A stretch of 35,883 nucleotides of DNA from positions 1 through 35,883 of the IMG/VR virus record IMGVR_UViG_3300036900_000253; one strand, 5' to 3'. Numbering within the stretch: position 1 is the stretch's first letter; every line of letters starts with the position of its first letter. This document shows positions 121 through 33,311 of the stretch, in pieces. The translations under genes were made by a program, and so were the position numbers. The stretch comes from a virus. The notes under the pieces are model-generated. The model saw only the letters and a list, made by a program, of their open reading frames with translations. It searched no databases and was not told the origin of the DNA.

Positions 121-1738
121 CGGCGGCGGCGGGGGCCAGCCGCCGCGCCGGCCGAGCCTGCCGCGCATCACGGCGCTGATGCTGGCGCTGGAGCGCGTGG
201 GCTGCCGCCTCTCGCGCGACCGCTTCGGCATCGGCTACGTCGCCGCGCCCGGCTTCGCGACCCGATACCACCGCGTGCGGCTCGACGGGCAGGACGCGCC
301 GAGCCTGGTCCGGCGGATTTGGGACGAGGCGCACCGCACCGCGGAGGGCTACGTGCCGGCGGCGCCGATGAGCAAGGCGCTCACCTACGAGATCATGGCC
401 GCGCTGCGCGCCCGAAGCGGCGAGCTGGCGCCCGCGCCGCACAATCGCCGGGTCGCCCGGCTCGCCGCGGACCGCGCCGTGCTCGACCCCGGCTGGAACG
501 ATTGGCGCTGCATCGAAATCAGGCGCGACGGCTGGCGCATCCTGCGGCACGAGCCGGAAGGGGCGCTGTTCCTGCGCTCCAGCACGCTCGCGCCGCTGCC
601 GGAGCCGGTGCGCCATCGCCCCGGCGCGCAGGTGGCCGGGGCGGCGCTGCAAGCGCTGTTCCCGACCGTGCGCAGCGATCGTTTGGCCGTGATGCTCGCG
701 GGCATGGCGTGGTCGCTGGTGTCCGGCTGCGATCACGTGGCATTCGTGCTGCACGGCGCCAGCGACGCCGGCAAGTCGACCCTGGCGCGGGCGATCCGCG
801 CCGTGCTCGACCCCAACTCCCAGCCCTATGACGGCGTGCCGGCGCACGACACGGTGCGGACCCTGATCGCGTCCGGCGCGCACGACCGGGTGCTCGGGCT
901 GGACAACGTCAGCACGATCACGCGTGAAGTCGCCGACATGCTCTGCCAGCGGCTCGACGGCTACGGCGGCGGCCGCTCGCGCGTGCTGCACACCAACGCC
1001 GACCTCGCGATCATCCATAGCTCCGGGCCGCTGGTGATTACCGGCATCGCCCCGCTGCTCGGGCACGCGGACCTCGCCGACCGCGCGCTGGTCATCGACG
1101 TGGCCGAGCTGGCCGGCGAGACGGCGCGGACCAAATTGGAGTCGGGCGCGGTGCAGCGCCAGGTCGACGCGCTGCTGCCGGAGCTGTTGGGCCGGCTGCT
1201 CGACGCGGCCGTGCTCGGCCTGGCCGGCGGCGGTCAGTTCGGCGCGGTGCCGGGCTTCCGCAACGGGGCGATGGCGGCCTTCGCGCAGGCGGCGGCGCCC
1301 GCGCTCGGCGAAACCGCGGCCGGCATGGCGGCGATGCTGGCCGAGGCCGGGCGCTACCAGCGCGTGCTCGCGGCCGACGCCGCGCCGGTCGCCTCCGGGA
1401 TCCTCGATATGGTCGCCAGCGGGCCGCAAGAGGGCCTGCCGCTCGGCCTGCTCTGGCGCGGCACGGCAATCGCGCTGCTGGCCGAGCTTGCCAAGGTCCC
1501 GTCCGTGCGGATGGACGGCGATTTCCCGCGCAACGGCTCGGCCTTGCAGAACGAGTTGATCCGGCTGCGCGCGGTGCTGGAGACGGCCGGCATCCGGCTC
1601 GTGCTGCACCGCGCCGCGCGCGCGAGCGGGCCGGGCGGCGCGTCGCGTTGGCTGGAGCTGTGGCAGGCGGACCCGGTCGCGGCGGCCGCGGCCGAGCTGG
1701 AACCGGACGGCGGGCGCGACGCGCCGGCCCGGCATTAG
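2..1738 (+). CDS. Primase-helicase C-terminal part, SF3/D5-like ATPase (5' end outside window)
   Basis: The frame is open from the left edge through the GGTNQRSA repeats, so the gene starts upstream of the window; 578 residues are visible. The Walker A motif GASDAGKST lies at 755-781. It is followed by a Walker B-like GLDNVS segment and by a stretch ending PLLGHADLADRALVIDV. That order matches the C-terminal ATPase of phage and plasmid primase-helicases (D5/SF3-like), which unwind DNA at the replication fork. The visible N-terminal part is a low-complexity linker, so a primase domain may lie outside the window. A short stretch of the motif C/arginine-finger region is echoed in a small gene at 14574-14756. 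The helicase family call is firm; the exact subfamily is not. Confidence 0.85.
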   Translation, partial: GGTNQRSAGGTNQRSAGGTNQRSAGGTNQRSAGGTNQRSAGGGGGQPPRRPSLPRITALMLALERVGCRLSRDRFGIGYVAAPGFATRYHRVRLDGQDAPSLVRRIWDEAHRTAEGYVPAAPMSKALTYEIMAALRARSGELAPAPHNRRVARLAADRAVLDPGWNDWRCIEIRRDGWRILRHEPEGALFLRSSTLAPLPEPVRHRPGAQVAGAALQALFPTVRSDRLAVMLAGMAWSLVSGCDHVAFVLHGASDAGKSTLARAIRAVLDPNSQPYDGVPAHDTVRTLIASGAHDRVLGLDNVSTITREVADMLCQRLDGYGGGRSRVLHTNADLAIIHSSGPLVITGIAPLLGHADLADRALVIDVAELAGETARTKLESGAVQRQVDALLPELLGRLLDAAVLGLAGGGQFGAVPGFRNGAMAAFAQAAAPALGETAAGMAAMLAEAGRYQRVLAADAAPVASGILDMVASGPQEGLPLGLLWRGTAIALLAELAKVPSVRMDGDFPRNGSALQNELIRLRAVLETAGIRLVLHRAARASGPGGASRWLELWQADPVAAAAAELEPDGGRDAPARH

Positions 1739-1757
1739 GGAAGGGGGGCGGGTTGGG

Positions 1758-2060
1758 ATGGCTGAGGTGCTGAGGGGCTATCACGGGCGCTACGCGGCCG
1801 GCACGGCGCCGGGGCCGGGCCGGCCCAGGGGGGCGCTGCGGCGCATCCCGCGCGGGCTGCCGGGCAGCCTGGCAAGCCGGCGCTGGCGGGCGCTGCGGGC
1901 CGCGCAGCGCGCCATGCGGGCCGAGGACGCGCTGCTGCGCGGCGCGGGCGCGATTGCCATGCTGCAAGCGGCGCTGCGGGCGGCCCGGACCAGGTCGGGG
2001 CGGCGGCGCGGGCGCGTGGGCGCCGCGGCCGATCCGGCGCAACCGGAGCTGCCGCTATGA
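1758..2060 (+). CDS. Small basic protein of unknown function
   Basis: 100 residues, Arg- and Ala-rich and strongly basic, with a possible helix in the middle (residues 40-75). The start follows a G-rich Shine-Dalgarno-like stretch (aaggggggcggg). The stop overlaps the next start as ATGA, which supports translation and coupling to the DUF5681-type gene. No family is recognised. A nucleic-acid-binding role is possible from the charge alone, but this is a guess. Confidence 0.6.
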   Translation: MAEVLRGYHGRYAAGTAPGPGRPRGALRRIPRGLPGSLASRRWRALRAAQRAMRAEDALLRGAGAIAMLQAALRAARTRSGRRRGRVGAAADPAQPELPL

Positions 2061-2446
2061 GCGGCGGGCAATGGCGGCAGGGGCAGTCCGGCAACCCGGC
2101 CGGGCGCCGGTCCGGCCGCGACAAATACCTCGATTGGTTCGACGAGGAGGCGGAGTTCGCCAAGCTGGCGCTGCACGAGAACATCGTGCAGCGCGGCAAC
2201 CTGCCGGCGCGGAACACGGCCGCGATCTACGTGCTGGACCAGGCCGCGGGCCGGCCCACGCAAGCCGTGGAAGTGACGGGGGGCGGGTTGGGGCTGGAGC
2301 ACTTCCTGGCCGTGGCGGCGCTCAACGGCGCGGCCGTGGCGGGCGTGCAGCTCGAGTTGGAGGGGATCGCGGAGCCGGCGCCCCGCGCCGATGACCCATC
2401 GGCGCAGGCGGCGCCGGCTCCGCTGCCGGAGCGCGGAGAGGGCTAG
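2057..2446 (+). CDS. DUF5681-type protein, possible small-terminase-like factor
   Basis: 129 residues. The N-terminus GQWRQGQSGNPAGRRSG is the hallmark of DUF5681, and the later DQAAGRPTQAVEV segment is also typical. DUF5681 proteins often sit near phage packaging genes, which suggests a small-terminase-like or packaging-linked role, but here TerL is about 6 kb away. The C-terminal 23 residues after GIAEP look like a later addition: the preceding 37 bp are repeated 420 bp downstream, where the same frame closes at once with a stop (GIAER*). The added tail contains a 9-bp-stem hairpin. The stop shares the CTAG palindrome with the convergent gene. Confidence 0.75.
   Translation: MSGGQWRQGQSGNPAGRRSGRDKYLDWFDEEAEFAKLALHENIVQRGNLPARNTAAIYVLDQAAGRPTQAVEVTGGGLGLEHFLAVAALNGAAVAGVQLELEGIAEPAPRADDPSAQAAPAPLPERGEG
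2339..2375. repeat. Direct repeat, copy 1 (offset 420 bp)
   Basis: 37 bp inside the DUF5681-type gene that recur at 2759-2795 with one mismatch (G2356 against A2776). It encodes AGVQLELEGIAE. Together the copies flank a 420-bp block holding the leftward gene 2443-2721. Confidence 0.95.
2385..2405. repeat. Hairpin repeat, CCGATG-ACC-CATCGG family
   Basis: A perfect 9-bp stem, GCGCCGATG / CATCGGCGC, with loop ACC. It lies in coding sequence just after the 37-bp duplication junction. The core recurs at 32263-32277. Confidence 0.85.
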
Positions 2447-2721
2447 GCTCGCGCCAGCACGGGCGCCCTCCGATCCGTCGTCCGCAACTGCGGCCGCCCA
2501 CTCGAATGCAGCTCGATCTCGCAATGGGCGCCGGCCGGGTCATAGATTGCCAGCTCGCCCCAGGCATTGCGCGCCACGTCGTAGCCGTCCGGGAGCTGGT
2601 AAAGTGTGCCGTCGTCCCAATCTTCGCGTGTCTCGTCATAACTGCGCGGCCGTTCGAGCGCGACCATGTCAAGCAAGGTCACATCCTTGGCGATACGGCG
2701 GTAAATCCTGACGGTTTGCAT
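2443..2721 (-). CDS. Unknown 92-residue protein, last gene of the leftward block
   Basis: 92 residues starting MQTVRIYRR, moderately acidic in the middle (YDETREDWDDGT) with a basic C-terminus. An AAGGAA Shine-Dalgarno lies upstream of the ATG. The region just upstream (2731-2757) resembles the tail of the HTH gene further upstream: both contain aaacccgtctga followed by aaggaac. This suggests the gene arrived with a fragment of a similar neighbour. It sits inside the 420-bp block bounded by direct repeats, so it is probably a recently gained cassette. Function is unknown; the context is the ArdC-containing block. Confidence 0.7.
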   Translation of the reverse strand: MQTVRIYRRIAKDVTLLDMVALERPRSYDETREDWDDGTLYQLPDGYDVARNAWGELAIYDPAGAHCEIELHSSGRPQLRTTDRRAPVLARA

Positions 2722-2758
2722 GATGTCGGTTCCTTGGTGTCAGACGGGTTTGACGGGG

Positions 2759-2795
2759 GCGGGCGTGCAGCTCGAATTGGAGGGGATCGCGGAGC
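2759..2795. repeat. Direct repeat, copy 2
   Basis: Second copy of the 37-bp sequence. Read rightward it encodes AGVQLELEGIAE and then R and a stop at the CTAG shared with the end of the leftward gene 2797-3135. It looks like the original 3' end of the DUF5681-type gene. Confidence 0.95.
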
Positions 2796-2796
2796 G

Positions 2797-3135
2797 CTAG
2801 TCGTCAGTCGGCGAGTGACAGCGGACGAACCCCTCATAGCGGCAGGATCGCTCGACGGCCGCGATCGTCTCGCGGTCCTGCCCGTTATGCACCACGGGAA
2901 CCGCCTCGCTGCCGTCGATGTCGGCGCGGTACACGTGGTATCCCGTGCTGGTGTCGTTTGGGTTGCGGCCGATCAGCTCGTATTCGCGGCCGAATTGCCC
3001 AACCAGGTTCTCGTCAAGCCAGCGTGCGGCGAGGGTCGGCGATACGTCAGAGCTGCCAATGACGCCGGGCGCCATGTCGGCCGTGTCGCCGAAGATAAAG
3101 CCGGAATGATTATCAATCAGGATGTAACGAGGCAT
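2797..3135 (-). CDS. Unknown 112-residue protein
   Basis: 112 residues starting MPRYILIDNHSGFIFGD. The ATG at 3135 is preceded on the minus strand by AAAGGAAC at a workable distance, which rules against the longer upstream frame. The protein is acidic and likely globular (ARWLDENLVGQFGREYELI, TGYHVYRADIDG). This style is common among small soluble proteins encoded beside ArdC on alphaproteobacterial plasmids. No function is recognised. It lies 17 bp after the HTH gene in the same direction. Confidence 0.75.
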   Translation of the reverse strand: MPRYILIDNHSGFIFGDTADMAPGVIGSSDVSPTLAARWLDENLVGQFGREYELIGRNPNDTSTGYHVYRADIDGSEAVPVVHNGQDRETIAAVERSCRYEGFVRCHSPTDD

Positions 3136-3152
3136 TGTTGTTCGTTCCTTTG

Positions 3153-3542
3153 TCAGACGGGTTTGGACGGTTCGGCAGAGGCGAGCGCGGCCGCGGCCGC
3201 CCACGCTTCGCTTCGGGTCCTGTAGTCGGGTCCGGCCGGGTCCGCGACGCCGGCCAGCGCGGCGACGCGGTAGCCGTGCTCCCGGCTGCCGGTCACGTAG
3301 TAGCCGGCCCGGCGCGCGCGTTGCTTGACGGTTTCTGGGTGCGGCGGCGGCGGCTCCGGCGGCGGGTGCGCCGCCACGTAGCGCGCCAGGTCGGTCAGCC
3401 AGCCGGCGATCCGCTCCGGGACGGCGATCTCGCCACGCGCCCAGCGGTGCGCCGTCGAGCGCGCCACGCAGGCCGCGGCGCCGAGCTGGGCCGGAGTCCA
3501 ATGCAGGATGTCCAGCGCCGCGCGCAGCTCGTCCGCCGTCAT
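3153..3542 (-). CDS. HTH protein (Cro/CI-like), candidate repressor of the leftward block
   Basis: 129 residues. Residues 1-53 form a Cro/CI-type helix-turn-helix: a helix around ELRAALDILHW, then TPAQLGAAACVARSTAHRWARG as helices 2-3, followed by a supporting helix (IAGWLTDLARYV). A Pro-rich linker (about 60-70) leads to an unrecognised C-terminal part with YYVTGSREHGYRV. It overlaps the upstream membrane-protein gene as ATGA. A small HTH regulator inside an accessory operon recalls the Aca regulators of anti-CRISPR operons, which bind promoter palindromes; the palindromes at 6346 and 7150 are candidate targets. The HTH is seen; the Aca-like role is inference. Confidence 0.75.
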   Translation of the reverse strand: MTADELRAALDILHWTPAQLGAAACVARSTAHRWARGEIAVPERIAGWLTDLARYVAAHPPPEPPPPHPETVKQRARRAGYYVTGSREHGYRVAALAGVADPAGPDYRTRSEAWAAAAALASAEPSKPV

Positions 3543-3826
3543 GGATGCACCGCATGGATCAACGCGGCGAGCGCCCACAGGCCAGCGCCGCCGATGATGC
3601 AGGCCAGGATGACCATGCCGGCCGCAGCGCCGCCCATCGCGCCGGCCGAAGCCGCCGCCGGCACGGCCCAAATCGCCAGCAGCCAACCCAGCGGACCCAA
3701 CGCGATGCAAGCGCCGAGCACGGCGCCGCCGAACGCGACGGCGCCGACAGCGCCGCCGATCGCCGCGGCGATGCCGGCCGATCCGGCGACGGCGCTCTCC
3801 CATGCGGGCCGCGGTGCGGGCGTCAT
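3539..3826 (-). CDS. Small glycine-rich membrane protein
   Basis: 95 residues starting MTPAPRPAWESAV. Two to three hydrophobic Gly/Ala-rich segments (about 12-40, 41-62 and 67-92) carry GxxxG-like spacing, so it is most likely an inner-membrane protein. The start at 3826 is chosen because it overlaps the upstream stop as ATGA; the stop overlaps the HTH start in the same way. Possible roles include superinfection exclusion, a holin-like pore or an anti-defence membrane factor; the sequence does not decide among them. Confidence 0.7.
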   Translation of the reverse strand: MTPAPRPAWESAVAGSAGIAAAIGGAVGAVAFGGAVLGACIALGPLGWLLAIWAVPAAASAGAMGGAAAGMVILACIIGGAGLWALAALIHAVHP

Positions 3827-4302
3827 GTGCTGCGGCCCGTGGCATAGATGCGCTGGCCGGCGTGCCACAACTCGGCGCTGCAAAAGTCCGGCTTGTCATC
3901 CCAGCAGGCAATCGCCCGGCGCGCCCGCTCCAATGTCGCGTAGGGCTCAACCCAGCTTCGCCATGCGGCGGAACCGTCGAGCAGGAAGCGGACCGTGTAG
4001 GGCATGGCGTCGGGCGCGCCGTTCCGCCATGCGTCCGGGTGCGCCGGGCGCTTGTCCCAACCGAACATCGAGCCGAAGATCATGGCCTCGCGAACCGGCC
4101 CATCCGGGACCGGCACAATGCCCTCGTTCAACAGCGCGACATACTCGGCGGCCCGCTCGGCGGTTTCGCACGTGAGCGTGTCGAGATAGCCCGGCTCGCC
4201 GCGGAACAGCTCGATCACGTTGCACGGATCGAGCGGATGCGCCGCGAAGGCACGGGCCGGCAAGGCGGCGAGATTTGCGGCGAGCTGCGCGGCCGGGCTC
4301 AC
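3823..4302 (-). CDS. Unknown 159-residue protein
   Basis: 159 residues from a GTG start (VSPAAQLAANLAAL) that overlaps the upstream stop as GTGA. The sequence is well-formed and Trp-rich (FGWDKRPAHPDAW, AAWRSWVEPY, ACWDDKPDF), typical of a folded soluble protein. It contains three Cys but no clear metal motif. The longer upstream frame is rejected because it would overlap the neighbour completely. Function unknown; co-transcribed with the ArdC-side genes. Confidence 0.7.
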   Translation of the reverse strand: MSPAAQLAANLAALPARAFAAHPLDPCNVIELFRGEPGYLDTLTCETAERAAEYVALLNEGIVPVPDGPVREAMIFGSMFGWDKRPAHPDAWRNGAPDAMPYTVRFLLDGSAAWRSWVEPYATLERARRAIACWDDKPDFCSAELWHAGQRIYATGRST

Positions 4303-4577
4303 TTGCCAGCTCCATCGGCCGGATCGGCGAACGTGGCCGGGATGGGCAGCGCGTCCGCGTCGACATAGGCTCGATCGCCGCGCCATAACCCGGTCACGTG
4401 AATCGGGCCGGAGCCGTCATAGGAGTTCTCGGCGTGCTCCCAATCGTCATCGGCAACGGCCAGCTCGCAGGCCGCGGCGAGCGACGGCGCCAGATAGGTT
4501 TGCTGCCGATAGACGGGCAGCATGTAGGTCGTTTCTACCGTGTAGTAGCTCAGGCGCTTGGCGAGCTGCGTCGTCAT
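4299..4577 (-). CDS. Unknown 92-residue acidic protein
   Basis: 92 residues starting MTTQLAKRLSYYTVETTYM. An AGGACGG Shine-Dalgarno precedes the ATG. The C-terminal half is acidic (AVADDDWEHAENSYDGSG). It is the first gene of the five-gene coupled set running leftward to 2797 and lies 126 bp downstream of ArdC, with a hairpin in the gap. No family recognised. Confidence 0.7.
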   Translation of the reverse strand: MTTQLAKRLSYYTVETTYMLPVYRQQTYLAPSLAAACELAVADDDWEHAENSYDGSGPIHVTGLWRGDRAYVDADALPIPATFADPADGAGK

Positions 4578-4651
4578 TGTTCCGTCCTGTCATGGTTCGG
4601 CCGGGTCAGTCCGGCCGCCCTCGCGCGCGGCAAAGGCACCATGCGGGCCGG

Positions 4652-4676
4652 CCATGCCCAACGTGACGTTGGGCGG
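4652..4676. repeat. Intergenic hairpin, CCCAACG family
   Basis: 8-bp stem GCCCAACG (4656-4663), loop TGA, then CGTTGGGC (4667-4674). The left flank CCATGCCCAACG is identical to that of the 29-bp repeats at 27411-27580. It lies between ArdC and the next leftward gene and could act as a transcription attenuator, but has no T tract on either strand. Confidence 0.8.
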
Positions 4677-4703
4677 CGCCCGCATAGCGTCTTTGCCGCG
4701 GCG

Positions 4704-6326
4704 CTAGGCCGCGATCGGCAAGGCCGGCTGCGCGGGCAGGCTCGGCGCGGCCGGCGCATCAAGCCAGCTCGCGTCGAAGCCGTGGCGCACATAGAACGCC
4801 ACGCCGGCCGGATCGGGGCGGGCCGCGTCGAAGCCGGGCGTGGAACGGTAGGCGTCGCTCGCGCGCCACGTGGCGCAGAATGCCGGGATGTTGGGCGCCG
4901 TTATCCGGCCAAGCGCCGCGGCCGCGGCGGCCCGCTCGCCTTCCGTGGCGCCGCGGCCCGCGAGGGCCTGGACTTTGGCGGCCCGTCCATCATGGGCCGC
5001 CAGCACGGCGCCTGCCGCGTTGAAGGCGGCCGCACATGCCCGCGCCCGCGCATCGCGCAAGCTGTCGGCCGGGCTATGCCGGCGCGCCGGCCGCGGGGCG
5101 AGCTGCAAGTGCGCCGGGAACGTTCCGGCCGGCCAATATTGCGGCGCCGGCAGGCATTGGCTGCGGCTCCAGCGAACGCGGACTTTGTCGGGCGAAAGCC
5201 AGCTTCGGGCGGCCGGCGCAAGATCAAGCCAGACGACGCCCGGCCCGGCCCATGCGTCCGGCCCGTGCTCCGCCTTGCAGGCGGCCCATGCGGCGCCGCT
5301 ATGATCGGTCCAATGCGGCCGGACGTTGGCGCGCGGCTGCGGCCGGGCCGGCGGCGCCACGGGCGCGGGCGCCGGCTGGCGCGGCCGGCGCGGCTTCGGC
5401 GGCTGCGGCGCAGGGTCGGGCTGCGGCGCGGGCGCGTCGGCCCGGTCCGCCAATTCGTGCAGATAAGTGGCGGCCCGTTCGGCGAGTGCGGCCGCGCGGA
5501 ACACGGCGCGATTGTCGCTTTTGAGCACCTTGATCCAGCTCGCCACGTAGCTGGCATGGTCCGCGCGCGGCTCGCCCACGGTCACGCCAAGATCCGCGCA
5601 GAGGAACGCCGCGCCCAGCTCGGCGACCAGCTCCTCGGCCGCATAAGCATGATCGCCGAAGCGCCGGCCTAGCACGCGGTCACAACGGGCCGGCGCCGAT
5701 GTCCAATGCGTCAGCTCGTGCAGCAGCACGGAATAATAGGCTTCCGGCGCCGCGAACGCGCCCGGCGCCGGCATCTGGAGATAGTCGAGCGACGGCGAGT
5801 AAAACGCCTTGTCGCCACCATGCCGGACCGTGGCGCCGGATGCGGCAACGAACGCATCGGCGACGGGATGCCGGCCGGCCAGCAACGGCGCGGGCGCCAG
5901 CGTTGGCACATAGTATTGATCGGGCAAGTCCTCGATTTGTTCCGCGTTGAACACGGCATACGATTTCAGGAACGAGAAACTATCTTCGCTTTCCTCGCCT
6001 GTATTTTCGTCGACATTGGTTCGCGTGGCTTGTCCCACGAAAAAGGCGCACTCGGCGCGTTCGCCTTTGCGCACGTGCGCGCCGAATGCCTGCGCGGCTT
6101 TGAGGGTCAGCCAATAAGGCGAGCGGTAGCCGCGAGCCTGCGCGGCGCACCACAAGTTGACGGTATTGACGCCACGGTAGGGCTGCCCGCCCACGCGGAG
6201 CGGCCGGCCGGACGCGATTGCCGGGCCGGAGCTGGCATCCCAAGGCTGGCGCCAGGGCGCCGTGCCTTGCTCCAGCAGCGCCACGATACGGTCAGTCACA
6301 AGCTGGTAATTGGAGTTGATCGGCAT
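4704..6326 (-). CDS. ardC: ArdC-family antirestriction protein with long C-terminal extension
   Basis: 540 residues. Residues 1-130 match the ArdC N-terminal domain (YQLVTDRIVALLEQGTAPW; PYRGVNTVNLW), which binds single-stranded DNA. The zincin-like metallopeptidase domain follows, with HELTH at 203-207 and a conserved downstream EELVAELGAAFL. Known ArdC proteins protect incoming plasmid or phage DNA from restriction. They are usually about 300 residues; here a Pro-rich linker (about 298-345) leads to some 195 extra residues of unknown fold (WTDHSGAAWAACKAEHG, CATWRASDAYRSTPGFD). The ATG at 6326 is chosen for its AAAGGAAAT Shine-Dalgarno; the open frame further upstream runs through a 53-bp palindrome that probably holds the promoter. 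Confidence 0.93.
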   Translation of the reverse strand: MPINSNYQLVTDRIVALLEQGTAPWRQPWDASSGPAIASGRPLRVGGQPYRGVNTVNLWCAAQARGYRSPYWLTLKAAQAFGAHVRKGERAECAFFVGQATRTNVDENTGEESEDSFSFLKSYAVFNAEQIEDLPDQYYVPTLAPAPLLAGRHPVADAFVAASGATVRHGGDKAFYSPSLDYLQMPAPGAFAAPEAYYSVLLHELTHWTSAPARCDRVLGRRFGDHAYAAEELVAELGAAFLCADLGVTVGEPRADHASYVASWIKVLKSDNRAVFRAAALAERAATYLHELADRADAPAPQPDPAPQPPKPRRPRQPAPAPVAPPARPQPRANVRPHWTDHSGAAWAACKAEHGPDAWAGPGVVWLDLAPAARSWLSPDKVRVRWSRSQCLPAPQYWPAGTFPAHLQLAPRPARRHSPADSLRDARARACAAAFNAAGAVLAAHDGRAAKVQALAGRGATEGERAAAAAALGRITAPNIPAFCATWRASDAYRSTPGFDAARPDPAGVAFYVRHGFDASWLDAPAAPSLPAQPALPIAA

Positions 6327-6345
6327 GGGCCGGATTTCCTTTATG

Positions 6346-6398
6346 TGCAACGCCACGTCCCATATATAGGGCTCCTGTATATGGGACGCAATGTTGCA
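6346..6398 (-). promoter_or_regulatory. 53-bp palindrome: promoter/operator of ardC
   Basis: Outer arms TGCAAC (6346-6351) and GTTGCA (6393-6398) share one centre (6372) with perfect inner arms GTCCCATATA (6357-6366) and TATATGGGAC (6378-6387). On the minus strand a TATATA -10-like box lies 17 bp from TTGCGT, a plausible -35. A homologous 53-bp palindrome lies at 7150-7202. The two share about 90 bp of alignable sequence, including a GTACATGGC flank. Confidence 0.8.
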
Positions 6399-6483
6399 AT
6401 CGTTGGGCTGCATTGCGCGCGGTACATGGCCGGGCGCGGCGGATCGGGCGCCTAGCGGCGATGCCAGCGAATGTCGCGGCCCG

Positions 6484-6690
6484 TCACTTGCCCGTTGTGT
6501 GCGTACTGGCGCGGGCCGCGCGCCATGCCTTGTAGAGATCAATTTTCGTGGCGGCACGTGGAAGCTTAATGCCGAACTCGGCCGCCAACTTCTTGCGCCA
6601 GTCCTCAGCGCGGAAGTCGTTTAGGAGCGGCAAGCGGGATGCCGCTTGCCGCTCCGCGCGGATCCGTCCGCTCCCTGAGGCTACCGACAT
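6484..6690 (-). CDS. Small basic protein, unknown
   Basis: 68 residues starting MSVASGSGRIRAERQ. The C-terminal half (EDWRKKLAAEFGIKLPRAA, TKIDLYKAWRAARA) looks like a small helical, basic DNA- or protein-binding module. The start lies 3 nt after the stop of the upstream gene, so it is probably translated by reinitiation; no strong Shine-Dalgarno is seen. Third gene of the 7115-6484 unit. Function unknown. Confidence 0.55.
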   Translation of the reverse strand: MSVASGSGRIRAERQAASRLPLLNDFRAEDWRKKLAAEFGIKLPRAATKIDLYKAWRAARASTHTTGK

Positions 6691-6693
6691 CGC

Positions 6694-6870
6694 CTAATAC
6701 CCAAGCCAGTCGCGGATTGCGCCGAGTGTCATGGGCACGGTTTCCCACACAAAGAACCCCGTCCCGTCGCAGCCGTATCCGGCAAGCGCCTCTATGTGAC
6801 CCGGCTGGGCCGATGGACGCGCCGGGATGTGGTGGCGCGCCAGGAATTGAGCGGCGGTTTCGTAGGTCAT
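6694..6870 (-). CDS. 58-residue unknown protein
   Basis: 58 residues starting MTYETAAQFLARHHIPARP and ending IRDWLGY. It starts 5 nt after the upstream stop and ends 3 nt before the next start, so it fits a compact three-gene unit. Balanced composition (GYGCDGTGFFVWETVPM) suggests a real folded microprotein. No family recognised. Confidence 0.6.
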   Translation of the reverse strand: MTYETAAQFLARHHIPARPSAQPGHIEALAGYGCDGTGFFVWETVPMTLGAIRDWLGY

Positions 6871-6875
6871 GGTCC

Positions 6876-7115
6876 CTAGCTCCGGGCCGCAATCATACGA
6901 TCTACGTGCGATTGAAACGCCGCAATGGCCTGCGGCCGCAGCTCGCGGAAGTGGCCGCGGTAGAAAAAGGCGCGGCCGTAATAATCGAAATGGACGGCGC
7001 CGCCACGGGTCAGGATTTCCGTGCCATCGCGCCGGAACGCGTCAAGTGCATACGCGTCGTAAGTGTCGAGCAAGTCGCCGAATAGATCGAAGAACTTGAT
7101 TTGCGAGATATACAT
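6876..7115 (-). CDS. 79-residue unknown protein, first gene of leftward unit
   Basis: 79 residues starting MYISQIKFFDLFGDLL. The ATG at 7115 is preferred because the upstream extension would run through the 53-bp palindrome at 7150-7202, which looks like the promoter/operator. Aromatic-rich centre (HFDYYGRAFFYRGHF) and helical ends. It is the first gene after the control region on the leftward side and so probably an early-expressed gene. Function unknown. Confidence 0.65.
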   Translation of the reverse strand: MYISQIKFFDLFGDLLDTYDAYALDAFRRDGTEILTRGGAVHFDYYGRAFFYRGHFRELRPQAIAAFQSHVDRMIAARS

Positions 7116-7149
7116 TGGGCCGGTCCGCTTCACTCGGGCGCCACATGAT

Positions 7150-7202
7150 TGCAACGCCACGTCCCGTATATAAGGTATCGGCATACGGAACGCCACGTTG
7201 CA
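7150..7202 (-). promoter_or_regulatory. 53-bp palindrome: promoter/operator of leftward unit
   Basis: Outer arms TGCAACG (7150-7156) and CGTTGCA (7196-7202) share centre 7176 with inner arms CCGTAT (7164-7169) and ATACGG (7183-7188). It is the same size and layout as 6346-6398, with inner-arm changes on both sides that keep the pairing. A TTATATA -10-like element lies on the minus strand. It is placed 35 bp before the first leftward gene. Confidence 0.8.
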
Positions 7203-7899
7203 TTCGCAGGGTTGCCACGCGTCCTGTACATGGCTAAGCCGGCCGCTTTGGTCACATGCCAACCCATTGATAAGGTTGCGAGTGACATAAGGCGGGGGAA
7301 AATCGTGTCATCGCACATTCGCAAGCAATATCAGCCGGTTGCGCCCGTTGCGCGCCGAGCCGTTGCGATCTGTTACGCGCGCGCGGGCGTGTGTGTTCTC
7401 CCTATCTTTTCTTTAGCGGCTCGGCGGCCGTGCCGTTCGGCGCTGGCAGCTCGCATCGGACCGGCCGGTGTCGCGTTCGATGCAGCCTGCTAATAAACCG
7501 TCGCTCTAGTTGGACGGGTATTGCCGCGGCGGATTTGCAACCTGGCCGTGCGGTCTGGCTTGGAGCTGCTGCGGCCGATCCGGGCGCGCCGGGCGAAGCC
7601 AGGGGAGGCGCGCCCGTGCCAATGGAGCCTGCCCGTATGGGACGTGGCCGGCATCGGTCCGATCCGTCCCACACAAGCCGTATCTGAGCATTGGGACGGG
7701 CGTTCCGGCCAGGTCTAAGACGTTGTGGGACGGATGGCGGCGGCGGCCGGCGCTCGCCCCCCCCGGCCGGCCGCCCACCCCCCGGCTGTGGCCGCGGCCA
7801 CCCCCCTACAGCTCGGCCCGAGAAAATTGACGAACCCGACCAAAAAATTGCGAACAAAGCGGGAAGGTGGCTAGGCTGCCCGTGGCACCGAGGTAGGAC
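7203..7899. other. Divergent control region without a recognisable gene
   Basis: About 700 bp between the leftward block and the rightward late operon. Visible structure: a perfect 12-bp inverted repeat ATCCGTCCCACA (7662-7673) / TGTGGGACGGAT (7724-7735); the motif TATGGGACGTGGC near 7636, also present (minus strand) in the left arm of the palindrome at 6346; C-rich runs around 7757-7806; and an AT-rich patch at 7820-7860 before the first late gene. No frame here has convincing protein composition. A promoter, operator or origin role is likely, but none is proven. Confidence 0.6.
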
Positions 7900-8043
7900 A
7901 TGAGCGAGCACACCGAGCAGATGCCGCCCAAGTGGCCGCCGCCGCGGCGGGTGCCGCGGGAGGATCCCGGACTGCCCGGCGATGACGGGCTGCCAGAGGA
8001 CCCGGAGGAGTGGCCGGAGCGCGAGGAAGGGCCGCTCCAGTGA
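7900..8043 (+). CDS. 47-residue acidic/Pro-rich protein, first gene of late operon
   Basis: Starts MSEHTEQMPPKWPPPRR after a good GAGGTAGGAC Shine-Dalgarno and ends PEEWPEREEGPLQ. The stop overlaps the next start as GTGA. Pro- and Glu-rich and likely disordered. Position directly ahead of the terminase genes suggests a packaging accessory protein; no family recognised. Confidence 0.6.
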   Translation: MSEHTEQMPPKWPPPRRVPREDPGLPGDDGLPEDPEEWPEREEGPLQ

Positions 8044-8261
8044 GCGAGGCAGCGCCGCCGCCGCACGTGGGGGTCAAGGTGCTCATCGGCACGTTGAAGA
8101 TGCTCGCGCCGCAGCTCGGCCAGCTTCCGCCGGAGGTTCGCGCGCAGCTCAAGCTCGAGCGGCTGGAAGCAGCCGCGAAGGCGGCGCTGGCGCGGGCCGC
8201 GAAGCTCGAGGCGGCGATGCCGGCGGCACCCATCGCCGAGCGCCGGAGCGAGACCGGATGA
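8040..8261 (+). CDS. 73-residue helical protein, terminase-proximal
   Basis: GTG start coupled to the upstream stop; the stop overlaps the TerL start as ATGA. Residues 10-65 are Ala/Glu/Lys/Arg-rich and predicted helical (LPPEVRAQLKLERLEAAAKA). A short helical protein directly before TerL is the usual place for a small terminase or packaging factor, but no HTH is visible, so the role is inference. Confidence 0.6.
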   Translation: MSEAAPPPHVGVKVLIGTLKMLAPQLGQLPPEVRAQLKLERLEAAAKAALARAAKLEAAMPAAPIAERRSETG

Positions 8262-9664
8262 GTGCCACCACGGAGAAGCGGGCGCCGTCCTTCGCGCTGC
8301 TGCTGGCGCGCTACGGGCGCAACTCGGTGGCGTTCGTGCGCGAAGTGCTCGGGACCGATCCCGACCCGTGGCAGCTCGAGATGCTGCAAGCGCTGGACCG
8401 GGGCGAGACGCGGATTTCGATACGGTCGGGGCACGGTGTCGGCAAGTCGACGATCATCGGCTGCGTGATGGTCTGGTTCCTGCTGACCCGTTACCCGGTC
8501 AAGGTGGTGGTGACGGCGCCGACCGCGAGCCAGCTCTATGACGCGCTCTGGAGCGAGGTCCGCGCGATCGTCAAGCGGCTGCCGGCGGCGTGGCAAGCGT
8601 TGCTCGACGTGCAGGCCGATCACATCACGCTCCGCGCCCGCCCCGAGGAAGCGTTCATCAGCGCGCGAACCTCGCGGGCCGAAAATCCCGACTCGCTGCA
8701 AGGCGTGCATTCCAAGAACGTCATGCTGGTGTGCGACGAGGCCGCGGGGATCCCGGAACAGGTTTTCGAGGCGGCCGGCGGCTCCATGTCGACGCCGGGC
8801 GCCATTACCATCCTGGCCGGCAATCCGACCCGCACGACCGGCTTCTTCTGGCGCACCCACGTGCTCGAATCGCACCGCTGGTTCTGCAAGCGCGTCTCCT
8901 GCCTCGATAGCCCGCGGGTCGATCCGGCCTATGCGGTCGAGGTCGCCGAGCGGTACGGGATCGACAGCAACCGCTACCGGGTGCGCGTGCTCGGCGAGTT
9001 CCCGCTGGCCGAAGGCGACACGATGATACCGGCCGCGCTGGTCGACGACGCCATGCGCCGGCCGGCCGAGATCGACGACGCCAGCCCCGAGATATGGGGG
9101 GTCGACTGTGCCCGGTTTGGCGAGGACGCGAGCGTGCTGATAAAGCGCAAGGGCTTCGCGGTACTCGAGCCGCCGCGACGGTGGCAGGGGTTGGATACGA
9201 TGGCGCTCACCGGGGCGATCGTCGCTGAGATACGGCACCGAGCGCCGGACGCGGTCGTGGTCGACAGCATCGGCATCGGGGCCGGCGTCGCCGACCGGCT
9301 GCGTGAGCTGAAATATGCCGTGGTCGACGTGAACGTGGCCGAGAGCAGCAGCAGCGGCGAGAAGTTCGTCCGGCTGCGCGACGAATTGTGGCAGGCGGCG
9401 CGGGACTGGCTCGCGAGCCGCACCGCCTCGCTGCCCTATGACGAGACGCTGCGCGCCGATCTGTGCGGGCCGCGCTATGCGTTCAGTTCGGACGGAAAAC
9501 TAAAAGTGGAATCTAAGGATAGCCTGCGCAGTCGCGGCGTGCCCAGCCCGGACAGCGCCGACGCGCTCTGCCTGACGCTGGCGCCGGGCGCCTTCCTGGC
9601 GGCCGCCTACGCGACGGGGCGGCGGGCGAAGCCGATCAAGCGGAATCTCAGGGGGGTTGTGTGA
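8258..9664 (+). CDS. terL: Terminase large subunit (ATPase-nuclease)
   Basis: 468 residues. Walker A SGHGVGKST lies at 57-65, Walker B VMLVCDEA at 155-162 and a coupling motif-like ILAGNPTRT at about 185-193. The C-terminal RNase H-like nuclease carries acidic residues in GVDCARFGED (about D283), VVVDSIGIG (D336) and SPDSADAL (D432/D435). These are the expected elements of the headful or cos packaging motor that cuts DNA and pumps it into the prohead. The start at 8258 overlaps the previous gene as ATGA, which rejects the longer upstream frame. Full family length; no sign of damage. Confidence 0.96.
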   Translation: MSATTEKRAPSFALLLARYGRNSVAFVREVLGTDPDPWQLEMLQALDRGETRISIRSGHGVGKSTIIGCVMVWFLLTRYPVKVVVTAPTASQLYDALWSEVRAIVKRLPAAWQALLDVQADHITLRARPEEAFISARTSRAENPDSLQGVHSKNVMLVCDEAAGIPEQVFEAAGGSMSTPGAITILAGNPTRTTGFFWRTHVLESHRWFCKRVSCLDSPRVDPAYAVEVAERYGIDSNRYRVRVLGEFPLAEGDTMIPAALVDDAMRRPAEIDDASPEIWGVDCARFGEDASVLIKRKGFAVLEPPRRWQGLDTMALTGAIVAEIRHRAPDAVVVDSIGIGAGVADRLRELKYAVVDVNVAESSSSGEKFVRLRDELWQAARDWLASRTASLPYDETLRADLCGPRYAFSSDGKLKVESKDSLRSRGVPSPDSADALCLTLAPGAFLAAAYATGRRAKPIKRNLRGVV

Positions 9665-9981: not shown

Positions 9982-10190
9982 CCGAGGACGAGCGCGCCCT
10001 GTTGCGGGCCTGTGCAGAGGTGTGCGCGGTGCTCGCGCAAGAGGCTCTGGAGCGCATCGCCTGGAACACGGCGGACGATCCGGCGGACGCCGCGGCGCGG
10101 AATCTCGCGGCGTCGCGGACCGCGCTGGAAGGTCCGATCCGCACCATCGCCGAATTGCTGGGGCGCGATGCCGCCCGTGCTGACGTTTGA
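9978..10190 (+). CDS. 70-residue helical protein, unknown
   Basis: ATGA overlap with the upstream gene. Mostly helical and acidic (MTEDERALLRACAEVCAVLA; ASRTALEGPIRTIAELLG). Overlaps the next gene by 23 bp. No family recognised. Confidence 0.65.
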   Translation: MTEDERALLRACAEVCAVLAQEALERIAWNTADDPADAAARNLAASRTALEGPIRTIAELLGRDAARADV

Positions 10191-10485
10191 GGCGGTCGGG
10201 CCGTCGCCGGATCGCCCGGCCCGCGCCGCGCGCCCGGCCCGCAGCGCGACGCTGGACCTGGCCGGCGAGCGGCGGCCGCGCTGCATGGTGGCGATCCCGG
10301 CCGCGCCGGGGCCGGGCCTGTATCACGGGGCCTGCGGCTGCGGCGCCATGTTCGTCTCGGTCGTGCTGGGCAGCGGCGACCCGGAGGTGGCGTATGTGGC
10401 GTGCTGGGAGCGCGAGCAGGCGCGCCCGGCCGGCCCGGCGCCGGGCGCTACGCTGTTCAGTCCGCGGCGACAAGGGGGCGGGTGA
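10168..10485 (+). CDS. 105-residue unknown protein with Cys cluster
   Basis: Starts MPPVLTFEAVGPSPDRP within the end of the upstream gene and stops directly before the next ATG. It contains YHGACGCGAMFVSVVLG, with a CxC pair, and a single later Cys in AYVACWE, so metal binding is possible but unproven. The 3' end holds a 24-bp sequence repeated at 10802-10825. Unknown function. Confidence 0.6.
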   Translation: MPPVLTFEAVGPSPDRPARAARPARSATLDLAGERRPRCMVAIPAAPGPGLYHGACGCGAMFVSVVLGSGDPEVAYVACWEREQARPAGPAPGATLFSPRRQGGG

Positions 10486-26288: not shown

Positions 26289-29147
26289 ATGGCGGCCTGG
26301 AGCCTGCTCGACAGCAGCGATCCCGTGCTCTCGCTGCTCGGCGGCCTCGCCTCGGGCGGCCGCGTCGGCGACGATGCCGGTCCGCTCACCGAAAGCGGCG
26401 CCAGCGCGCTCGCTCCGCTGCAACGGCGCACCGCGCTGGACTCGCTGATGGCGTCCGGCGCGGCGCTCGCCAATGCCGGCGCGCCGGGCTTCGGGCCGCG
26501 GCCGACGCTGGCGCAGGGGCTCACGCAGGGCTTGCTCGCCGGCTCGATCGCCGGGCAGGCGGCGCAAGAGCACGGGCAGGCAATGGAGCAGTCGGCGCAG
26601 GTGCTCGCGCAGGCCGCGCAGGACGCCAACATTCGCCGCCAGCTCATGATGCAGCAGCTCCGCAATAGCGACCTGGCGCGCAACCTGATCCTCCAGCGGT
26701 TCGGCGGCGTGGCGCCGGCCGATGACGGCACGGGGGGCGGCGCGCCCGCCTTCGCGGGGGACGGGTCCGCGCCGGGGATGGGCGTGCGCGACGCGCTGCG
26801 CGCCCACGAGCAGGGCAAGCTCGGCTATCAGAGCGTCAATGCCGGCGGCTTCTCCGGCGCCTACCAGATGGGCTCGCCGCTGATGCAGGACGCCGGGCTG
26901 TACACGCCAGCGGCGCCCGGCGAGGCGCCGAACACGTGGGCGGGAACGATCAAGGTGCCCGGCTTCGGCGAAATGAAGCGCGACGACTTCCTGAAATCGC
27001 CGGGCGCGCAGGAGCAGGCGTACGGGATCATGATGGGCCACCTGGACAAGCAGCTCGACAGCCAGGGCCTCTACGCGCTGGCGCAGCGCCGCATGGTGGA
27101 CGGCAAGATCAATGGCGTGCCGGTCACGCGCGAGGGGCTGCTGGCCGGCGCCTGGCTCGGCGGCACGGGGGGGCTGCGGAGCTGGCTGACCGGCGGCGGC
27201 GACCCGGCCGACAGCAACCGCACGCGGGTTTCCGACTATGTGCGGCTCGGGTCCCTGCCCAACGCCTCCGTTGGGCATGGGCCGCAGCCCGCGCCAGCGC
27301 CGCCGGCATCCCCGGCTCCGGGGCGGGTGCAGGTCGCGCAGGCCGGCGCCTTGCCGCCGCCCGTCAACGACGCCAGCGCGCCCGCGGCAACGCCCCCGGC
27401 TACAGCGACGCCCATGCCCAACGGAGGCGTTGGGAAGGGTCCGGCGCCCGTGGGCGGCCCGACGCTCGCGCCCGCGCCGCTGCCCATGCCCAACGGAGGC
27501 GTTGGGCAGGGACGGGCGCCGCCGCTGCCTGTCGGCGGGACAACGGCGGCGCCCATGCCCAGCGGAGGCGTTGGGCAGGGTGCGGCGGGCGGGGGCAGCT
27601 TCCTGCGGGGCGCGACGCAAGCGCAACTGGCGGCGGCGCTGCTCTCGAGCGATCCGCTCAAAGCCTTGGCGAGCCTGGCCGGGCAGAAGGTGGAGATCAA
27701 GGAACGGTGGAACCCGCAGACCGGCGCGAAGGACCAGGTCATCGTCAACAACGACGGCGCCGTGATCGGGCAGTTCGCCGCGGGCAAGCCGGAGTTCGCC
27801 GCGCCCGTGACCGAGATCGGCGCGGACAACCAGGCGCACACCGTCTACCGCATCCCCGGCACGAACGTGGTGCAGCAAGGCGGCGTGGTGCCGGGGCACA
27901 CCAGCACCGAAAAGATCTGGAACCCCGCGACCGGCCAACTCGACCTGACGGTGCTCGACGCCAACCGCCAGCCGGTCAAGGTGATCGGCAGCGAAAAGCC
28001 GGCGTTCCACTATCAGACCGAAGTGATGCCGGACGGGCAGACCTATCACACCGAACGGATCGAGGGCGTGCCGGGCTACGTCAAGCAGCTCGGCGTCGCG
28101 CCGCGCGAAATCAAGCAGGTCAAGGAGTTCGACCAGGGCGGCAACCGCACGCTGATCTGGAACCTCGACGCCAGCGGCAACAAGACGGGCACGCCGATCG
28201 TCTCGCCGGAGCTGCCGGGCGAGATCAAGGAAATCCAGGACGAGAACGATCCGACCAAGCGGCATTGGGCCGCGTTCTATCCCGGCCAGACGCAGCCGCA
28301 GATACTCGGCCGCGCGCCGACGCCCCCGGAACTGGCGGCGCGCTCGCCCGAACGCACCGCGCAGAACGCCGCCGAAGCCGCCGCCTCGGCCACCGGCAGC
28401 GAAGCCGGCAAGCTGGCGGCGCAGGACTGGAGCAAGCTCTACGCCAGCCGCAATACCGCGCTGGCGATGAACAACCAGCTCAACATGCTCGAGGCGGTGT
28501 CGCGCAACATCCCGACCGGGCCGGGCATCGAGAGCGGGGTCAAGCTGGGCAAACTCGCCGCACAGCTCGGGCTCGACCTGAAATCGCTCGGGCCGGGCTT
28601 CTCGGTCGACACCGCCGTGAACGCCGACGTTTTCCGCAAGATCGCCAACGGCCTCGTGCTCGGCCAGCTCGGCGGCGAGGGGATGCCGCGCAACAATTTC
28701 AGCGACACCGATTTGCGCTTCCTGACCGAAACGATGCCGAACCTGCAAAACCTGCCGAACGCCAACAAGACCGTGATCGACTACCTGCGCGCCATGCAGC
28801 AGCGCACGATCGAGCACGCGAACGCTTGGGACGCCTACCGGGCCGCGAACGGTCCGGCCGCAGCCAGCGAGGCGGGCTTCCGCCAGTTCGAGAACGAATG
28901 GAGCAAGCGGATCGCGAGCGATCCGATCGTGACCTACGTCACCGACCGCGACCAGATCGCCAAGCTGCCGCCTAACCGCATCTGGTGGACCGATATGGGC
29001 GGCGGCCGCATGGGCTACACCGACCCGCGGCCGCCCCTGCAACGGCCCGGCGGACCGCAGACGCGCCCGCCGCCCGCGCCGCCGCCGCCATTGCCGGCCG
29101 TGCCGCCGCCGCCGCCGCGCGACCGCATCTATCAGCCCACGGACTAA
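26289..29147 (+). CDS. Internal virion protein with lysozyme-like domain
   Basis: 952 residues. After a helical N-terminal region, residues 165-325 show a lysozyme/transglycosylase-like domain: a candidate catalytic Glu (E174) in LRAHEQGKLGY, then GGFSGAYQMGSPLMQDAGLY, LKSPGAQEQAY, GLLAGAWLGGTGGLRSWL and SDYVRLGS. Such virion domains open the peptidoglycan during DNA entry. A Pro-rich linker (about 323-435) carries four copies of a 29-bp hairpin repeat, one inverted. A long C-terminal region follows with repeated beta motifs and helices (NMLEAVSRNIPTGPGIESGV). The Pro-rich tail is PPPAPPPPLP-like. No separate endolysin gene is visible. Confidence 0.8.
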   Translation: MAAWSLLDSSDPVLSLLGGLASGGRVGDDAGPLTESGASALAPLQRRTALDSLMASGAALANAGAPGFGPRPTLAQGLTQGLLAGSIAGQAAQEHGQAMEQSAQVLAQAAQDANIRRQLMMQQLRNSDLARNLILQRFGGVAPADDGTGGGAPAFAGDGSAPGMGVRDALRAHEQGKLGYQSVNAGGFSGAYQMGSPLMQDAGLYTPAAPGEAPNTWAGTIKVPGFGEMKRDDFLKSPGAQEQAYGIMMGHLDKQLDSQGLYALAQRRMVDGKINGVPVTREGLLAGAWLGGTGGLRSWLTGGGDPADSNRTRVSDYVRLGSLPNASVGHGPQPAPAPPASPAPGRVQVAQAGALPPPVNDASAPAATPPATATPMPNGGVGKGPAPVGGPTLAPAPLPMPNGGVGQGRAPPLPVGGTTAAPMPSGGVGQGAAGGGSFLRGATQAQLAAALLSSDPLKALASLAGQKVEIKERWNPQTGAKDQVIVNNDGAVIGQFAAGKPEFAAPVTEIGADNQAHTVYRIPGTNVVQQGGVVPGHTSTEKIWNPATGQLDLTVLDANRQPVKVIGSEKPAFHYQTEVMPDGQTYHTERIEGVPGYVKQLGVAPREIKQVKEFDQGGNRTLIWNLDASGNKTGTPIVSPELPGEIKEIQDENDPTKRHWAAFYPGQTQPQILGRAPTPPELAARSPERTAQNAAEAAASATGSEAGKLAAQDWSKLYASRNTALAMNNQLNMLEAVSRNIPTGPGIESGVKLGKLAAQLGLDLKSLGPGFSVDTAVNADVFRKIANGLVLGQLGGEGMPRNNFSDTDLRFLTETMPNLQNLPNANKTVIDYLRAMQQRTIEHANAWDAYRAANGPAAASEAGFRQFENEWSKRIASDPIVTYVTDRDQIAKLPPNRIWWTDMGGGRMGYTDPRPPLQRPGGPQTRPPPAPPPPLPAVPPPPPRDRIYQPTD
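27253..27281 (-). repeat. 29-bp hairpin repeat, inverted copy
   Basis: Exact reverse complement of the copy at 27483-27511. It is still in frame and encodes LPNASVGHG. Stem GCCCAACG/CGTTGGGC, loop CCTC. Confidence 0.95.
27411..27439 (+). repeat. 29-bp hairpin repeat, direct copy
   Basis: Encodes PMPNGGVGKG. One change (C to A) in the right flank relative to 27483. Confidence 0.95.
27483..27511 (+). repeat. 29-bp hairpin repeat, direct copy
   Basis: Encodes PMPNGGVGQG; reference copy. Stem GCCCAACG/CGTTGGGC, loop GAGG. Confidence 0.95.
27552..27580 (+). repeat. 29-bp hairpin repeat, direct copy
   Basis: Encodes PMPSGGVGQG; A to G in the left arm gives a G-T pair, so the fold is nearly kept. 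Confidence 0.95.
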
Positions 29148-32501: not shown

Positions 32502-32584
32502 CCGCGGACGATCTATGGCTGCTCTGGCCCGCGCTCTGCGCGCTGTCCTGGCTCGTTTGCTGGCTGCTGGAGCGGCGGCGATGA
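32489..32584 (+). CDS. 31-residue single-pass membrane peptide
   Basis: From GTG: VRGLTADDLWLLWPALCAL then SWLVCWLLERRR. One strongly hydrophobic helix with an acidic N-side and Arg-rich end. The stop overlaps the next ATG. Such peptides can be holin-like or lysis-related, or just regulatory; the start codon is uncertain. Confidence 0.5.
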   Translation: MRGLTADDLWLLWPALCALSWLVCWLLERRR

Positions 32585-33213
32585 TGTTCTTTGCCGGGAT
32601 GCACCACCCGCAAGACGCCTGGCGCGTGCCGGCCGCGTTCATCTCGGCGCATGTGCTCGCCGTCCGGCGCTCGGGCTTCCGCGCCCGGCGTTGGGTGCTC
32701 GATAGCGGCGCGTTCCAGACCATCGAGCTGCACGGCGGCTACCCCGAGTCAGCCGAAACCTATGCCGCGCTGATCCGCCGCTACGCCGGCAATGGCCAAT
32801 TGCTCGCGGCGGTCGCGCAAGATTTTATGTGCGAGGGCTTCATGCTGGAACGGACCGGCGGCACCATCGCCGATCACCAGCAATGGACGATCGAGCGATA
32901 CGACGCGCTGCGGTCCTGCGATCTCGCTGGGGTCCGAATCATGCCCGTGCTGCAAGGCTATGCGCCGGCCGACTATGCCGCGCATGTCCGCGCCTACGGC
33001 GCCCGGCTCGAGCCGCGGGCATGGGTCGGGGTGGGGTCCGTGTGCAAGCGGAACGGGCGGCCGGCCGCGATCGAGGCGGTGCTGCTGGCGATCAAACAGG
33101 AACGCCCCGATCTGCGGCTGCACGGGTTCGGGGTGAAGTTGACCGCGCTCGGCTCGCAGCTCGTCCGCACGCTGCTTTTCTCGGCCGACAGCACTGCACC
33201 TGTTGCCCGATGA
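32581..33213 (+). CDS. DpdA/TGT-like deazaguanine DNA- or tRNA-modification protein
   Basis: 210 residues, ATG 32581. WVLDSGAFQTIELHGGYPES, VAQDFMCEGFMLERTG, VRIMPVLQGYAPADYAAHV, WVGVGSVCKRNGRPA and LRLHGFGVKLTALGSQLVRT are the ordered motifs of the DpdA family, relatives of tRNA-guanine transglycosylase that in phages insert 7-deazaguanine derivatives into DNA to evade restriction. The C-terminus stops soon after FSADS, where family members usually continue with an AWS-like segment, so it may be shortened. No queuosine-precursor genes (folE, queC, queD, queE) are in this window. Placed at the end of the late operon. Confidence 0.8.
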   Translation: MMFFAGMHHPQDAWRVPAAFISAHVLAVRRSGFRARRWVLDSGAFQTIELHGGYPESAETYAALIRRYAGNGQLLAAVAQDFMCEGFMLERTGGTIADHQQWTIERYDALRSCDLAGVRIMPVLQGYAPADYAAHVRAYGARLEPRAWVGVGSVCKRNGRPAAIEAVLLAIKQERPDLRLHGFGVKLTALGSQLVRTLLFSADSTAPVAR

Positions 33214-33294: not shown

Positions 33295-33311
33295 GCCGAT
33301 CAGCGATCGGC
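33295..33311. repeat. GATC-AGC-GATC hairpin over the recombinase stop
   Basis: GCCGATC (33295-33301), loop AGC, GATCGGC (33305-33311). It covers the stop codon of the leftward recombinase. Flanks match 13613-13631. Confidence 0.85.

Follow-up and report, generated by a model that had tools for sequence, protein, structure and literature searches.

Gene layout between the two terminase genes

The window analysed here is the whole of a 35,883-base IMG/VR virus record (IMGVR_UViG_3300036900_000253), which is classed as linear and described as a soil-type bacterial virus. Its gene content is that of a tailed phage, with an SU10-type portal (PF23899, 8.5e-164) and a large terminase whose closest isolate match is that of Sinorhizobium phage phiM5 (52%). 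A scan of 84,980 species genomes gave, within its sensitivity, no relative of the terminase. Between the genes for the small terminase (TerS, 2057-2446) and the large terminase (TerL, 8258-9664), both on the plus strand, lie ten leftward genes (2443-7115), one of which encodes a member of the ArdC antirestriction family. The initial annotation of this DNA had read the block as an anti-defence operon and had proposed, through guilt by association, that its small unrecognised genes encode counter-defence factors. That proposal is partly supported: one good new candidate, g6, and one fair candidate, g1, emerge from it.

All ten genes are present as annotated and are referred to, in order of increasing coordinate, as g1, g2, the helix-turn-helix (HTH) gene, the hydrophobic transmembrane (TM) gene, g5, g6, ardC, g8, g9, and g10. 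The layout is well established, as codon scores make the true frame the best of six in every gene except that of the TM protein (0.26, versus 0.28 for one antisense frame); the lowest score in the block is that of g8 (−0.05 bits per codon). The tight coupling that suggested an operon is real in places: successive 4-nt overlaps join g6 to g5, g5 to the TM gene, and the TM gene to the HTH gene, with only 5 nt between g10 and g9 and 3 nt between g9 and g8. It does not extend across the block, however, as intervals of 157 and 126 nt separate ArdC from its neighbours and g1 is set apart by a gap of 75 nt. Because gaps flank ArdC and the element upstream of it is repeated ahead of g10, the block comprises two leftward units, g10-g9-g8 and ArdC-g6-g5-TM-HTH-g2-g1, rather than a single operon.

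All nine small proteins were run together by tblastn against phage and plasmid records. No credible PADLOC or NCBIfam matches were obtained among the block proteins, and seven of the small genes besides g6 (the HTH and TM genes included) were not found in the plasmid clusters that carry ArdC and g6.

ArdC, g6, and the other block genes

Judged by its sequence, the 540-residue product of 4704-6326 (minus strand) belongs to the ArdC antirestriction family, as annotated. It combines an ArdC-N single-stranded DNA (ssDNA)-binding domain at residues 5-126 (PF08401, 3.5e-32) with a zincin-like MPTase-PolyVal domain at residues 156-280 (PF18818, 7.5e-50), both far above cut-off, and matches the anti-restriction family PHROG 7245 (1.1e-86) as well as the solved ArdC structures PDB 6i89 and 6sna (7.6e-70). 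The HExxH signature is present as HELTHW at residue 203, followed by a downstream glutamate helix (...AYAAEELVAELGAAF...). A proline-rich linker leads to a C-terminal region of around 210 residues (about residues 327-540), for which tblastn found no relative in 50,697 phage or 72,556 plasmid records.

Among the 30 ArdC domains placed in a tree, that of the window protein is sister to one from an Ancylobacter plasmid (support 89/92), although several long branches make placements uncertain, as the program itself warned. The wider clade (95/89) holds proteins from Aminobacter, Bradyrhizobium, Bosea, Ancylobacter, and Sphingobium plasmids, a Burkholderiales metagenome-assembled genome, and a Caulobacter phage, and the plasmid ArdCs linked to g6 fall inside it. 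ArdC-N is characteristic of conjugative elements and seldom found in phage-type polyvalent proteins (PMC5512222). The occurrence of ArdC in phages is already known. The ArdC of plasmid R388 binds ssDNA and is needed for conjugation past the recipient's HsdRMS system, an effect not abolished by mutation of the protease site (PMC7213743). As a homologue of R388 ArdC, the phage protein should likewise protect incoming DNA.

The strongest new counter-defence candidate is g6 (4299-4577, minus strand; 92 residues), which belongs to a family found in plasmid ArdC clusters. It has no Pfam family and went unrecognised by all family libraries used, yet residues 12-86 matched 139 plasmids by tblastn, 105 of them typed as conjugative (45%-52% identity; best E 4e-14). 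These homologues lie mainly in Rhizobium, Agrobacterium, Shinella, and Bradyrhizobium and share the conserved core T-[IV]-E-T-T-Y..VTG.W.G. The relationship of g6 to plasmids is well established. In the annotated plasmid regions that were opened, the neighbourhood recurs: a ParB-like protein, DUF932 or DUF1419/DUF3085, a toprim protein, DUF2493, and a very large methylase/DEAD 'strawberry notch' helicase, with an ArdC-like zincin in several cases.

The initial annotation had suggested looking for repeated co-occurrence with ArdC, and g6 is the gene for which this was found. Whole-record searches located ArdC-N in 6 of the 11 g6 plasmids examined, the nearest copy lying about 2-13 kb from g6; ArdC matches occur in 3012 of the 72,556 plasmids overall (4.2%), a baseline that compares across taxa with taxon bias uncontrolled. 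In the conjugative-plasmid clusters, recurrence of ArdC with g6 was scored by the distance between the two. A profile of the g6 family was positive in 2 of 385 genomes from the class of a Komagataeibacter genome; both chromosomal copies lie in a similar cluster, and one has ArdC about 2.8 kb upstream within it.

Viral contigs yielded no relative of g6, so a phage that carries this gene, as the window does, is unusual. The sole phage record matched by tblastn was MT839211.1, an unannotated sequence of 4481 bases from human faeces labelled 'Bacteriophage sp.'; ParB-like genes stand beside its g6 homologue, and it looks like conjugative-plasmid DNA. A single-sequence structure prediction for g6 was unusable (predicted local distance difference test, pLDDT, 45). 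We propose g6 as a good new counter-defence candidate and as a companion of ArdC.

The evidence for g1 (2443-2721, minus strand; 92 residues) comes from Paenibacillus phages. Its one significant phage relative, in phage SV21 (tblastn E 1e-4; 41% pairwise identity over 56 residues), is the gene directly downstream of ArdA (PF07275, 5.6e-29), and in phage API480 a shortened relative likewise follows ArdA. This link to an antirestriction gene is secure in these two phages, but in the Vegasvirus group the more distant copy that was inspected (Hayley) has no adjacent ArdA, and g1 therefore appears as a fair candidate. Copies of a 38-nt stretch from the end of the small-terminase gene lie on both sides of g1, the left copy (2338-2375) inside the terminase gene and the right copy (2758-2795) 97% identical to the left. 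Omission of the 420 bp between the copies would leave a shorter TerS end meeting g2 tail to tail. Because these TerS-end repeats flank g1, their arrangement identifies it as a separate, later insertion.

For g5 (3823-4302, minus strand; 159 residues, GTG start) the case is weaker. Residues 5-92 match phrog_10280 (4.1e-8), a family of which Caulobacter phage BL57 has a member some 6 kb away from ArdC and on the same strand as it. Direct similarity between g5 and the BL57 protein gave E 5.7e-4 in a set of 50 proteins, in which a reversed control query reached 5.2e-3; the link to ArdC in Caulobacter phages is thus only suggestive. No member of the g5 family was found in 289 genomes of the class of the Komagataeibacter genome, where the control was also silent.

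The 112-residue product of g2 (2797-3135, minus strand) belongs to a phage accessory family, with relatives on ten viral contigs (40%-63% identity). Its AlphaFold 2 model is confident (pLDDT 83), and a fold search with it gave no match to known folds. One phage contig (L128) holds two copies of the family, at 4050-4403 and 10001-10357, the second of which adjoins terminase genes.

The HTH protein (3153-3542, minus strand; 129 residues) is a candidate autoregulator. It had been described as Aca-like, after the regulators associated with anti-CRISPR (Acr) genes, but no such kinship was detected: the protein has only a generic, weak HTH_31 match (0.0019, under the Pfam cut-off) and no credible PDB relative at E values up to 10 (best E 0.43, unrelated), and hence no solved Aca among the PDB chains. 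By these comparisons, it resembles Aca proteins in size only. The glycine- and alanine-rich TM protein (3539-3826, minus strand; 95 residues) has no family; a weak 37% match over 63 residues (E 0.002, low-complexity) was obtained to an open reading frame near the integrase of L012, a related temperate phage contig.

The remaining three genes, all on the minus strand, are orphans. The 68-residue g8 (6484-6690) has no family and no phage or plasmid match by tblastn, and a hairpin with a 14-bp stem lies within its reading frame (6624-6655; fold z −4.3). The 58-residue g9 (6694-6870) matches phrog_31662, a family without assigned function (8.5e-5); it has no tblastn matches in phages or plasmids, and its family was absent from 16 virus records in which the control was also silent. 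The 79-residue g10 (6876-7115) has no family, and relatives are absent from the viral contigs, phages, and plasmids searched.

Repeated elements upstream of the two units

Each leftward unit is preceded by one copy of an 85-nt element on the minus strand. Copy A (6346-6430) lies upstream of ArdC and copy B (7150-7234) upstream of g10; they are 75% identical, and each contains a 53-nt dyad (6346-6398 and 7150-7202). The core pattern is present at exactly two places in the window and absent from shuffled sequences, so the duplication of the dyads is beyond doubt. Stem differences between the copies are compensatory (CCCATATA/TATATGGG in one, CCGTAT/ATACGG in the other). Both dyads fold well as RNA (z −7.5 for A, −4.9 for B) and as DNA (z −6.2 and −3.2). 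Read by eye, dyad A contains the promoter-like sequence TTGCGT-N17-TATATA and dyad B TGGCGT-N17-TATATA. A shared coding leader peptide is ruled out, as the 21 differences between copies are spread over the codon positions (6, 8, and 7). The element was also considered as a widespread motif and rejected, its two matches in viral contigs both lying in coding sequence at a frequency near chance by rough estimate.

From these features, the duplicated element is a probable shared promoter/operator, most simply a promoter that an operator overlaps. It is possible, if rather doubtful, that the dyads act instead as hairpins in a 5′ leader RNA (attenuators or protein-binding leaders), which would alter the control step only and is compatible with the explanation of the block given below. 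The strong RNA folds, the G-U pairs, the compensatory differences, and the weaker DNA fold of copy B would suit such a role; the promoter-like hexamers, however, lie inside the dyads, such that a transcript starting there would not include the hairpin in full, and the dyads have no match in Rfam.

A further hairpin of 75 nt, with 23-nt arms that are 87% complementary, lies between ArdC and g6 (4626-4700, minus strand; fold z −6.25 for 4610-4712). It is a possible partial terminator or messenger RNA stabiliser and may reduce expression downstream of ArdC. The same interval holds a palindrome of the form GCCCAACG-N3/4-CGTTGGGC (4656-4674). Four others (27257-27276, 27416-27435, 27488-27507, and 27557-27576) occur within one tail-region gene encoding MPNGGVGQG-like peptides, far above chance.

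Elsewhere in the window, a perfect 24-bp tandem repeat (5.3 copies, 1-127) occupies the left contig end, either just ahead of a primase/helicase-like gene or in its first part; it could be a genuine coding repeat or reflect the edge of the assembly. A serine recombinase of the resolvase/invertase kind is encoded at 33300-33881 (minus strand; PF00239, 1.6e-38) in a region without an identified integrase. In L016, a contig among the nearest terminase relatives, the large terminase (1093-3453) is a single 786-residue frame whose ATP-binding region is interrupted by about 305 residues; the insert starts with Cys, ends with HN-S, and looks like an intein.

Proposed working and comparison with known systems

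The explanation we prefer, with a probability of about 0.6, is that this tailed phage carries, around an ArdC with close kin on conjugative plasmids, a block of counter-restriction genes that is expressed early and under negative control. The early timing, the promoter and repressor assignments, and every biological activity of the block are inferred. After entry, host RNA polymerase would transcribe leftward from both copies of one promoter. ArdC would bind the incoming DNA and guard it against type I and type II restriction enzymes until modification, while g6, carried on the ArdC transcript, would act on the host defence that ArdC targets or on a companion defence, with its relatives probably doing likewise in newly entered plasmids. 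Both units would then be switched off by a repressor that binds the dyads, for which the HTH protein of the ArdC unit is the simplest candidate. As a later addition, g1 would probably serve a similar purpose, and the remaining genes would be phage accessory genes.

The phage also encodes a DpdA (32515-33213, plus strand; PF23859, 3.7e-32; PHROG 1279), relatives of which are known for 7-deazaguanine DNA modification. It is likely, from its family membership, to be a second anti-restriction function and may contribute to modification of the phage's own DNA; together with ArdC, it implies that two routes against restriction may exist.

Several results weigh against this explanation. Five of the 11 g6 plasmids (four from Rhizobiaceae, one from Bradyrhizobium) carry no ArdC anywhere in the searched records, so the tie of g6 is to the plasmid cluster and not specifically to ArdC; replication-type genes (toprim, helicase) belong to this cluster as well. 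ArdC-N (PF08401) occurs in none of the ten viral contigs with g2 relatives, many of which are fragments, so that g2 was rejected as an ArdC partner and guilt by association, which holds for g6 and in part for g1, fails for this gene. The block is missing at the corresponding place from L012, L014, and L016, the closest of the terminase relatives that were examined. A standard sigma-70 scan of 2000-8300 gave no promoter, and the promoter and operator roles of the elements are predictions from sequence.

A tentative alternative is that the block is a generic accessory ('moron') collection of unrelated small genes that built up between the terminase genes. Counter-defence would then fall to ArdC and perhaps g6 only, and the HTH protein, the membrane protein, and the orphans would have roles in lysogeny, superinfection exclusion, or takeover of the host. 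Relatives of g2 lie beside terminases or within other stretches of accessory genes in unrelated phages from which ArdC is absent, g1 was inserted separately and left a footprint of its own, the sole look-alike of the membrane protein lies near the integrase of a temperate relative, and g8, g9, and g10 are orphans. The dyads common to both units nevertheless imply co-regulation, and g6 and g1 each have independent anti-restriction neighbours.

An unlikely reading is that the phage acquired the block from conjugative plasmids as a leading-region anti-defence module, with g6 founding a counter-defence family common to plasmids and phages and the hairpin elements being relic or active DNA-entry promoters. 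A Frpo/ssi single-strand promoter is a hairpin that holds the −35 and −10 hexamers in duplex on the entering single strand; the dyads fold as DNA, contain promoter-like hexamers, and are possible candidates for such elements, but tailed phages inject double-stranded DNA (dsDNA). Less probable still is a role for g6 and ArdC in DNA establishment or replication, with ssDNA handled alongside toprim and helicase partners: the toprim primase-like, helicase, and ParB-like genes of the g6 plasmid cluster and the ssDNA binding of ArdC (PMC7213743) would fit, but R388 ArdC is required against the recipient's HsdRMS (PMC7213743), and mobile-element SWI2/SNF2-methylase proteins are discussed as answers to restriction-modification attack (PMC5512222).

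Should the counter-restriction explanation hold for g6, a function could be assigned to a gene that 139 listed plasmids (from rhizobia, agrobacteria, Bradyrhizobium, Bosea, and sphingomonads) carry and that falls outside the family libraries used. The block would then also exemplify the reuse of plasmid entry-protection genes by a phage, something reported to be rare for ArdC-N proteins (PMC5512222). The gene-by-gene outcome ranks priorities for the bench, with g6 first, then g1, and the others not yet.

Among known systems, the IncW R388/pSa ArdC (PDB 6i89, 6sna) shares the ArdC-N and metalloprotease domains, the HExxH motif, and small function-unassigned genes alongside; the R388 ArdC region also carries a regulator gene, ardK (PMC7213743). 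The window protein differs in being phage-borne between terminases, in its C-terminal extension of about 210 residues without relatives, and in its small neighbours. Polyvalent proteins similarly join an ArdC-N header to an MPTase and a further region, but ArdC-N is called rare in those of phage type (PMC5512222), and the C-terminal region here has no match. In Caulobacter phiCbK-like phages, ArdC also stands among consecutive small leftward genes, with a distant g5 relative about 6 kb off, although those phages are giant and no duplicated dyad is known there. The small HTH gene within a small-gene unit and the dyad at a putative promoter recall acr-aca operons; here, however, there is no Acr or Aca homology, the HTH gene is third from the end of its unit, and binding of the HTH protein to the dyads is hypothetical.

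A further comparison is with the leading regions of conjugative plasmids, which are anti-defence islands (PMC11541004). As there, an ArdC-type gene and small genes follow hairpin-containing upstream elements, and the g6 family occurs in plasmid clusters of the same ArdC-plus-small-gene make-up. Unlike those islands, the block belongs to a tailed phage with dsDNA entry, is flanked by TerS and TerL, and lacks an adjacent origin of transfer (oriT) or relaxase, no relaxase being found among the window proteins scanned (a subset of the open reading frames). Plasmid anti-defence islands are already known, and g6 is a specific new lead.

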